DNA from: Branchiostoma floridae
Lineage: Eukaryota > Chordata > Leptocardii > Amphioxiformes > Branchiostomatidae
Reading direction: 5' to 3'
Length of the DNA: 64,000 nucleotides
NCBI RefSeq assembly: GCF_000003815.2
Contig: NC_049983.1
Location: forward strand, 20,366,553-20,430,552
Shown here: piece by piece, positions 9,802-35,497 of the stretch
Position numbering within the stretch: the first letter of the stretch is position 1
Layout of the letters: every line of letters begins with the position of its first letter
Translations under genes and position numbers: made by a program
The notes under the pieces: model-generated
The model's input: the letters and a program-made list of their open reading frames with translations, nothing else
Told to the model about the DNA's origin: nothing
Databases searched by the model: none

Positions 9802-10536
9802 ATGNNNNNNNNNNNNNNNNNNNNNNNNNNNNNNNNNNNNNNNNNNNNNNNNNNNNNNNNNNNNNNNNNNNNNNNNNNNNNNNNNNNNNNNNNNNNNNNN
9901 NNNNNNNNNNNNNNNNNNNNNNNNNNNNNNNNNNNNNNNNNNNNNNNNNNNNNNNNNNNNNNNNNNNNNNNNNNNGGTGTGCTCGTGGCCTTGTTCTTCG
10001 TGAGTATCGGCGTCAGCAAGACGTTCCAGTACCTTGTGAACCACACGAACCTGATTGTGCCTGCCGCGCCGGAGGGAGACCCGCTGATGCACGATGACGA
10101 AGGGAGTGTGGGAGAAGGCGTCAGGACGCGTGCTGCTGAGGGAATGGCAAACCACGGGCATTCTGGTGATGTATGTCACGACATTTTCGTGGTTGGGGAC
10201 GGCACTTCCGCTGCCAACCCACGCGCAGACAAGGACAGGGACAGGGACGGTCTTACGCACGGAGGGCAGCACGACCCCGGGCCTTCCTCGAAGCCGGCAT
10301 CGGACAATAACGTCCGCCGACCGGGAAAATTCCCCGGCAAATCCAAATGGATCAGGGAAGGTAAAAAATCGACAAGGATTGCTCCACTGGTCGAGGCCAA
10401 TGACCCCAAAAAGAACGAGGGATTTTCTAGCAAGCGGAATAACAACGAACCATCTACCTCACGTGGTAACAACCGGGCGCCTGTAACAAAAAAGTCCGGT
10501 TGGGACCTACCAATGATCCTGTTAAACCCACCCTAA
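9802..10536 (+). CDS. Single-pass membrane protein, family copy A (N-terminus in gap)
   Basis: Function unknown. The readable part starts at 9976 inside a hydrophobic segment and continues with the family box [17 protein letters not shown] (about residues 71-87), shared with the genes at 23301 and 34883. A hydrophilic tail follows, rich in Asp, Arg, Gly and Asn. Near the C-terminus are PSTSRG and a final [15 protein letters not shown], both matched in copy B (PSTSR; GWDLPILMVNAP), so the stop at 10536 is credible. The ATG at 9802 lies 13 bases after a good splice acceptor (TTCTCATGCAG) and is in frame if the 171-base gap is sized correctly. That gives about 244 residues and places the box within four residues of its position in copy B. 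By analogy with the other copies it should be a type I plasma-membrane protein with a short ectodomain and the whole CDS in one exon. GC content is well above the surroundings. Family membership is sure; role and exact start are not. Confidence 0.85.
9805..9975. other. Assembly gap (171 N)
   Basis: A run of N covers what should be the N-terminal ectodomain and the start of the membrane segment of the gene at 9802-10536. If the estimated length is right, 171 bases equal exactly 57 codons and keep the ATG at 9802 in frame with the downstream coding sequence. Confidence 0.95.
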
Positions 10537-10856
10537 CTGGCTAAATTGATCAACAGAAATGCCCATCTACCGGTAAACGTGTTGACATGTACATGTAATA
10601 CGCAAGTCCCGCGGCACAGAAGCGCCCGAAGACGTCAGCAACCACGCACGGGAGGGACGGGGAGGCAGATTGATTGGAGGCTCGCAGCGATGAGGTGGCT
10701 CTGAGTGATCACAACTCTTATCGTACCATCAAGCACTCGAGATGCAGGAAATGAAATTCGTTCACGTCTGACGAAACAGGCTTTTCCTGCAATCACTATC
10801 TTCCTCTAAATCTTGGTAAAGAAAGAAAGCAGTTGTTGGAAAGTAATTCACTTCAG

Positions 10857-10909
10857 ACCGTCCGCTCCGCTCCTGGAAGCAGACCATCGCTGGAAAGCGC
10901 GCTTCAAAG
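10857..10909 (+). CDS. Candidate internal exon of an unidentified gene
   Basis: A 53-base segment follows an acceptor-like TTCACTTCAG and ends at a good donor (AAAG then GTAAGG). In the frame [17 protein letters not shown] it is open and leaves two bases (AG) over. That phase fits the candidate exon at 11250-11495, which begins with one base. The acceptor has a poor pyrimidine tract and so short an open frame proves nothing by itself. It starts 320 bases after the stop of family copy A, so it could also be 3' untranslated sequence of that gene. Confidence 0.25.
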
Positions 10910-10956
10910 GTAAGGTACAACGAAATAACATCCCGGCTTCTTTTAATCATGTGTAC

Positions 10957-34500: not shown

Positions 34501-34843
34501 CTGCTCATCTTCAGTCATTCTCCTCGTGTACCCTTCATTCTCTCGGAAGATGCAATCAAGCCCGTCTACGCCTTCCTCTATCGGTGCGAAAATAGCCGTA
34601 ATCTTTATTCAAACCGTACAGCGCGCGATATCCTATGAGCGTTACTTACGACCCATTGGAGATATCTACCACTGCAAAAGCCCTTTCTATATGTATGAAG
34701 TGAAGTGTTACAAAAGGCGTATAATGCGCCCTTGTGATGGTTTCGTCTATAGGATGCTTCTGTTCCTCGTATTTGAGGTTTACTGGTCTTCCTTCATTGC
34801 GATCTTTTCAGTTCTAGTGTTGAAGCTAAAATTACCTTTCTGA
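31521..34843. other. Spacer without a supported gene
   Basis: No gene, RNA or element boundary can be supported here. A short GTTT repeat lies at about 33073-33096. Frames up to 79 codons, and a non-ATG frame of 156 codons at 34373-34843 just before the third membrane-protein gene, show no recognisable domain. Confidence 0.4.
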
Positions 34844-34882
34844 TTGTGTGTCTTTCCATTCTGGATCACAGGGGTGGTGAAT

Positions 34883-35497
34883 ATGACAACAGCGGGGCCG
34901 GGGCCGGGCAACATCAGTACCACGGAGCCGACAGCCGAAGATGTGTGGGTACGGGATGAAGGTTGGCCGCCCACGGCCCTGGTGATGTGCGGTATATTCA
35001 TAGGAGTGTTCGTCCTGAGCACGGTTGTCAGCAAGAGCTGCCAATACATTGTCAATCACACCAACCTCATTATCCCCAACCCGATAGAGAGCCCGGTCTC
35101 ACCTCGGAGAACTGCCTCGGAGGACAGTAAGGAATTCCTCGGCGGGAATGAAAGACGGAATCCCCCCGCCAAACCGTTACTGGTAGGCACCACGCCACAC
35201 TACGACGTGATGGACGTACTGAGTATGCTGTATTCCATGGACGCCAACAGACATCATAGTACCGCCGGCGCCGGGACTAACGCTCAAAACACCAAATCCC
35301 CAGAGCTCGGGAGCTGGACCAACAACATCACTAGAGACAGACCAAATGAACCTGGACAGGGTGAAACTAGATTAACAGACGGTGAAATTTCGGAAAGCCA
35401 AGAAACCAAAGACTCGTGCACTAGCACCATGCATATGCAGGAGTTTTCGCGATGTCCAGAAGTAGTGGTGCACTCACCAAGGGACAGTAATGTCTGA
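34883..35497 (+). CDS. Single-pass membrane protein, family copy C
   Basis: 204-residue frame; function unknown. The ectodomain is short (about 28 residues) with one glycosylation site, N10 in NIS. The hydrophobic segment is at about 29-50 and the family box VVSKSCQYIVNHTNLIIP at 48-65. The tail is hydrophilic, with an amphipathic stretch (YDVMDVLSMLYSMD, about 107-120) that may match SMEEIVEIVTHQI in copy B. It lacks the PSTSR and GWDLP boxes and instead ends in DSNV, a possible class I PDZ ligand. The ATG at 34883 (MTT, as in copy B) is the first in frame and follows an acceptor (CCATTCTGGATCACAG at 34870). The codon frame also extends upstream without ATG to 34844. A donor-like CAGG then GTAAGG lies 28 bases after the stop, so a 3' untranslated intron or an alternative C-terminus is possible. 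Confidence 0.85.
   Translation: MTTAGPGPGNISTTEPTAEDVWVRDEGWPPTALVMCGIFIGVFVLSTVVSKSCQYIVNHTNLIIPNPIESPVSPRRTASEDSKEFLGGNERRNPPAKPLLVGTTPHYDVMDVLSMLYSMDANRHHSTAGAGTNAQNTKSPELGSWTNNITRDRPNEPGQGETRLTDGEISESQETKDSCTSTMHMQEFSRCPEVVVHSPRDSNV

Follow-up and report, generated by a model that had tools for sequence, protein, structure and literature searches.

The KCNE proteins have a single transmembrane (TM) segment with an N-glycosylated, N-out end, and their coding region is intronless. A basic juxtamembrane stretch, [RK]S[KR][KR], occurs together with DPxxxYI, as seen in the alignment rows of KCNE1 and KCNE2, and KCNE3 needs the S1 phenylalanines of KCNQ1. The transmembrane adaptors (LAT, PAG and others) are built from a short ectodomain, one TM segment, a Cys near the inner leaflet and a long disordered tail. 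In Reprimo, the TM and juxtamembrane sequence is GCNLLIKSEGMINFLV. The part of PMC6073456 concerned with the Reprimo family (RPRM, RPRML and RPRM3) describes vertebrate-only, single-exon, N-glycosylated proteins of 103-120 aa with one TM segment, and gives their origin as an open question. Small single-exon, single-span proteins are easily missed by annotation, and a lancelet gene cluster encoding proteins of this kind provides a concrete test case for the origins of both KCNE and Reprimo.

We found such a family in Branchiostoma floridae, arranged in one cluster and with coding constraint in a box adjoining the membrane segment; the related, seemingly one-exon genes number at least five and probably seven. 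The window (the whole 64,000-nucleotide stretch that was analysed; C5:20366553-20430552 in a searched genome of 513 Mb and 431 contigs) carries three of them on the plus strand, with starts 13.5 and 11.6 kb apart. These three open frames were described in the initial annotation, and the string reported there, VSxxxQYxVNHTxLxxP, was found directly after the membrane segment in each of them (boxes at 10012, 23499 and 35027). To judge from the open frames, all three are probably single-exon genes. Gene 1 (9802..10536, +) is a single open frame of 244 codons, of which codons 2-58 are N: a 171-base run of N (9805-9975) starts right after the ATG and ends in frame, so that the ectodomain and the first part of the membrane segment are not readable. 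Its 17-residue box lies at 10012..10062 (+), and its 12-residue C-terminal peptide at 10498..10533 (+). Gene 2 (P0001; 23301..24266, +) is a single open frame of 321 aa with the ectodomain sequons NFT and NAT, the box VSQTCQYLVNHTDLLVP at 23499..23549 (+) and the C-terminal peptide GWDLPILMVNAP at 24228..24263 (+). Gene 3 (P0002; 34883..35497, +) is a single open frame of 204 aa with the ectodomain sequon NIS, a membrane segment placed by alignment at 34976..35026 (+) and the box VSKSCQYIVNHTNLIIP at 35027..35077 (+); FSRCPEVVVHSP at 35444..35479 (+), which may be what is left of the C-terminal peptide, is followed by RDSNV*. Further runs of N occur at 39483-39582 and 44627-44819, and Rfam gave no match in the window at the gathering score.

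The count of three genes was too low: the genome search and the leave-one-out profiles indicate at least five. When gene 2 was used as the query against the genome, the matches listed included gene 3 (E 4.8e-5), gene 1 (E 0.063), C5:20324580 (−; E 0.0015) and C5:20362985 (+; E 0.029), together with one unrelated weak match. The two additional loci, P0004 (42 kb upstream of the window) and P0005 (3 kb upstream), are full ORFs of 209 aa and 177 aa, respectively, with the same layout. When P0004 was used as the query, gene 3 was found at E 1e-8 over residues 11-209, and E was about 1e-3 for genes 2 and 1, while P0005 was absent among the matches listed; the alignment of gene 3 with P0004 extends to the last residue of P0004. 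In the leave-one-out profile searches, for which the search space was the 6877 six-frame ORFs from 264 kb, each of the five was recovered by the others (gene 2, E 1.9e-16; gene 3, 6.1e-16; gene 1, 4.1e-14; P0004, 1.9e-14; P0005, 3.8e-12), and the best non-member reached E 0.04-0.41. Among the matches listed in the whole-genome searches, no member lies downstream of the window, and the family is, as far as searched, confined to one cluster in the genome.

Seven ORFs in the 264 kb have a sequon followed by a TM segment; four of these are the core members with a readable N-terminus, and two are P0006 (C5:20304663-20305190, +) and P0007 (C5:20319288-20320052, −). The latter two find each other in searches (E 8.3e-4 and 1.6e-4), have [VI]SxxCNKLA at the place of the box and retain [ST]x3Sx3N in the same register. 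The profile comparison between the five and this pair gave 82% over 32 ungapped columns, with 0 of 300 shuffles as good; in hmmsearch with the five, P0006 ranked 15th (E 0.99) and P0007 23rd (E 3.6) among the 6877 ORFs, both short of significance. Judging from these sequence comparisons, both are probable members of the family. With them, the cluster extends over about 97 kb (C5:20304663 to 20402049), and a tubulin gene (Pfam Tubulin; alpha by reading) sits between P0006 and P0007.

Several other candidates were left out. A third P0006/P0007-like ORF of 152 aa (C5:20287175-20287633, −) ranked 5 (E 0.19) with the P0006/P0007 profile, 232 with that of the five and 13 with that of the seven. Its N-terminal part is basic and rich in Ser and Arg, and its C-terminal segment is hydrophobic and ends in the P0006-box-like VSTACARLFRRLY*; the ORF may possibly encode a tail-anchored relative. 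The pattern [VIL]S..[CFV].[YKR][LI] has 23 matches in the 6877 ORFs, nine of them after a hydrophobic stretch; eight of these nine are the seven genes and the C5:20287175-20287633 ORF, a count that is not independent because the pattern had been derived from the genes themselves. In IMG/VR, a pattern search matched 67 DNA stretches, not one of which encodes a relative. Weak genome matches on C6, C8, C13, C14 and C17 (translated, frames of at least 60 aa) were dropped because the VSxx[CFV]QY / CNKLA box is absent from them. A 101-aa frame on C17 (L047; C17:13461933-13462184, +), which matches P0007 weakly (E 0.86), is Thr/Ala-rich and then has a hydrophobic stretch and ASSKYIHTERKRERK.

Chance ORFs were rejected as an explanation on the basis of ORF length and of the substitutions in the box. 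In simulated windows (n = 60, 64 kb, same first-order composition), the longest ATG ORF had a mean of 139 aa and a maximum of 192 aa, which gene 2 (321 aa) clearly and gene 3 (204 aa) barely exceeds. In the box (20 codons), every one of the 10 pairwise comparisons among the five members gave a larger pS (0.60-1.05) than pN (0.12-0.39); since the box was chosen for its conservation, the low pN is partly due to this choice and is not independent, while the high pS is independent. The excess of pS over pN suggests that the five members are real genes, in which the box has retained its protein sequence and silent sites have changed almost to saturation. The GC content of the ORFs is 0.47-0.57, as compared with 0.34-0.51 for the 2-kb bins across the window.

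The structure around the membrane segment was examined with an AlphaFold2 model of gene 2 based on the five-member alignment (mean pLDDT 53; 202 of 321 residues below 50). Two confident helices were found. One covers residues 48-77 (23442..23531, +), with values of 96, 96 and 81 for the ten-residue blocks of 51-80, and the TM helix is thus predicted to run on, unbroken, through the box. The other, at residues 213-247 with block values of up to 94, belongs to a Gln/Arg-rich part of the tail, which is special to gene 2 and missing from the other four in the alignment. The residues invariant across the five in the TM segment and box are S64, S68, Q72, Y73, V75, N76 and P83 (gene 2 numbering). S64, S68, Q72 and N76 are at i+4 spacing, and P0006/P0007 have S/T, S, N and R/T there. 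In the helical-moment test, p was 0.07-0.15 with the five members and 0.03-0.12 with all seven, and fell below 0.05 in one of six settings, so that the polar stripe is suggestive only. The earlier proposal that the box binds a partner is therefore partly supported: the predicted helix through the TM segment and box and the i+4 invariant residues agree with it, while the periodicity was significant in just the one setting. As for the orientation, N-x-S/T sequons were found in the ectodomains of all four core members with a readable N-terminus and of both P0006 and P0007, and, as read from the sequences, K/R residues are more frequent in the tail-side flank than in the N-terminal one. The box itself holds an N-H-T sequon, which would be exposed under the inverted topology; this counts against the N-out reading.

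Outside the box, the initial annotation had regarded the proteins as strongly diverged, with conservation limited to the box. The latter statement was too narrow and the former is partly right: genes 1, 2 and P0004 end in similar C-terminal peptides (WVDIPVVIVHPP in P0004), and partial versions are seen in gene 3 (FSRCPEVVVHSP) and P0005 (EAWGPREVVV), so that the peptide is common to three, perhaps five, members. The tails after the box differ in length, 116-238 aa in the five. Tail alignments were better than shuffles (300 each) for genes 1-2 (p 0.003) and gene 3-P0004 (p 0.007). Among all 21 tail pairs, these two were at p < 0.01, one more (P0005-P0007) was at p < 0.05, as expected by chance, and 18 were not.

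The family was indeed unrecognised, as first supposed, in the Pfam, NCBIfam and PDB sequence searches, and it is an orphan within Pfam, NCBIfam, the PDB sequences searched and IMG/VR. In hmmscan against Pfam and NCBIfam, nothing was above the curated cut-off for any of the seven proteins. The PDB sequence searches, with genes 2 and 3 singly and with a three-member and a seven-member profile, gave nothing convincing: the best match of gene 2 was an ABC protein (E 0.29); that of gene 3 was a flagellin-type chain (E 0.011) in the low-complexity tail, with no single stretch passing; and the three-member profile had no match. The open-licence full-text literature gave no description of the family or of its box string. 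In part of PMC12709367, KCNE appears solely in connection with Xenopus oocytes, and in 12 of 20 places in PMC3896409 there is no placement of KCNE in lancelets.

Our tentative reading, which is possible but has somewhat less than an even chance, is that these genes are a tandem family of single-exon, single-pass N-out/C-in accessory subunits, whose helix packs on a larger membrane partner and whose tail recruits factors. We infer such a working from where the constraint falls. The short N-glycosylated N-terminus would be outside, and the TM helix would continue unbroken through the conserved box, which would lie at the inner leaflet. The small/polar stripe S-x3-S-x3-Q-x3-N would then pack on a TM helix of the partner, for which a channel (with a KCNE-like working) or a receptor is most likely; the same protein, as a homo-oligomer, is a further candidate. 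The long, mostly disordered basic tail and the C-terminal peptide may recruit cytosolic factors. Duplication would have kept the partner-facing helix and left the ectodomain and tail free to diverge, as might be expected of alternative subunits for one partner type.

Part of the same evidence bears on two other workings. The proteins may be transmembrane signalling adaptors, LAT/PAG-like in working and not in descent, with a short ectodomain, a possibly palmitoylated juxtamembrane Cys and a disordered tail with phospho-motifs. They resemble the adaptors in the short ectodomain, the single TM segment, the Cys near the inner leaflet and the long disordered tail: a C stands three residues after S68 in four of the seven (genes 2 and 3, P0006 and P0007; F/V in the other three), the tail of gene 2 is mostly of low confidence, and RKHSSD (P0004), RRHSSD (P0005) and RHHST (gene 3) occur in the tails. 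However, by eye, the five-member alignment contains no common tail tyrosine motif that could serve SH2 domains, and it is the helix, not the tail, that is most strongly conserved; to our knowledge, the adaptors have no counterpart of the conserved helix box. We consider this explanation unlikely. It is also rather improbable that the genes encode orphan receptors or stalk proteins specific to the lineage; the ectodomain would then do the work, and the box would set only trafficking (ER exit or endocytosis). Every readable member has a different ectodomain, as is seen in diversifying receptors, but these ectodomains are only about 24-80 residues long, have no common cysteine pattern and gave no domain match.

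The remaining explanations concern descent. The genes might be divergent KCNE-family β subunits, a pre-vertebrate KCNE branch binding KCNQ1-like channels. The proteins are small and probably single-span, with a presumably N-glycosylated, N-out end and a conserved TM-proximal box that would be cytosolic, and the sequons, the AlphaFold2 helix and the open frames fit the KCNE layout. The seven-member profile matched that of KCNE1-3 with a probability of 59% (1 of 200 shuffles as good), as compared with 27% for the five alone (4 of 200) and 19% for the P0006/P0007 pair alone (8 of 200), and that of KCNE1-5 with 42% (3 of 500 and 0 of 500 shuffles as good). The alignment with KCNE1-5 is ungapped over 30 columns, with S64 and H73 of KCNE1 opposite the conserved S and H. 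The genome also contains KCNQ1-like exons (C19:5.63-5.74 Mb, 65-85% identity). On the other side, known KCNEs detect each other at 96-99%, while single members reached 43, 41, 1, 24, 0.6, 4 and 4% against KCNE. None of the seven members matches PF02060, for which the genome gave three sub-threshold matches and none over the cut-off, and human KCNE4 passed in the same scan (33.9 bits). The RSKK-type stretch and DPxxxYI are missing, the box being [CFV]QY[LI]V or CNKLA, and the family differs from KCNE further in its long tails and separate C-terminal peptide. In addition, the TM profile similarity to KCNE, although better than column shuffles, ranks below that to real PDB TM segments: the seven-member profile matched seven PDB sequences (E 0.22-2.5; glycophorin, integrin and others), KCNE not among them, so that the TM likeness to KCNE is not special. 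Membership in KCNE was rejected on the Pfam and motif grounds and is distinctly improbable; KCNE is kept as the nearest analogue. A relationship to the vertebrate Reprimo family is very improbable. The layout of a single exon, N-glycosylation and a single TM segment described for Reprimo in part of PMC6073456 resembles that of the family, as do the short, presumably N-glycosylated N-terminus and the hydrophobic C-terminal peptide (RPRM ends in P-Y); the single exon, two N-sequons and one TM segment fit, but 103-120 aa does not fit the 177-321 aa of the four core members with a readable N-terminus. When 3171 ORF ends were scored against the shared C-terminal peptide, 0.28% did as well as the RPRM end and 2.4% as well as the RPRML end, in a test picked after the likeness was noticed. 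Against Reprimo, the TM-plus-box profile gave 2% for the five, 0.3% for the pair and 1% for the seven (20, 121 and 29 of 200 shuffles as good), the RPRM/RPRML profile found no member at E ≤ 10, and the RPRM search of the genome gave a single match (E 0.31) containing a stop. Reprimo was rejected, the TM segment and box being unrelated to its GCNLLIKSEGMINFLV by the profile tests. It is also improbable that the cluster is a lancelet remnant of the ancestral stock of a vertebrate single-exon, single-span regulator family, with KCNE as the better and Reprimo as the weaker candidate. If this were true, control of KCNQ1-type channels by such accessory subunits would be older than vertebrates, although Ciona is without KCNE genes according to part of PMC9671499. 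If the genes are unrelated to KCNE and Reprimo, they would form a lineage-restricted family of probable accessory subunits, which is of moderate interest.

Some other elements were noticed in the genome and in and around the window. Exons like a human KCNQ1 fragment lie at C19:5625586-5738373 (65-85%) and C17:862346-869223 (38-69% identity). Upstream of the cluster, C5:20225249-20254341 may hold a tandem gene array: its repeated ORFs look by eye like CUB and F5/8-type C domains with Thr/Ser-rich stretches after them. In the window, a 45-bp tandem repeat with 13 copies (52260-52847) has an open frame on each strand (261 and 178 aa), and its minus-strand frame has no Pfam match. A 194-aa open frame (40590-41171, −), which has no Pfam match at E 0.01, resembles by eye the end of a non-LTR retrotransposon ORF. 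Finally, two tandem copies of a 212-bp unit, 98% alike, lie between genes 2 and 3 (29870-30285).
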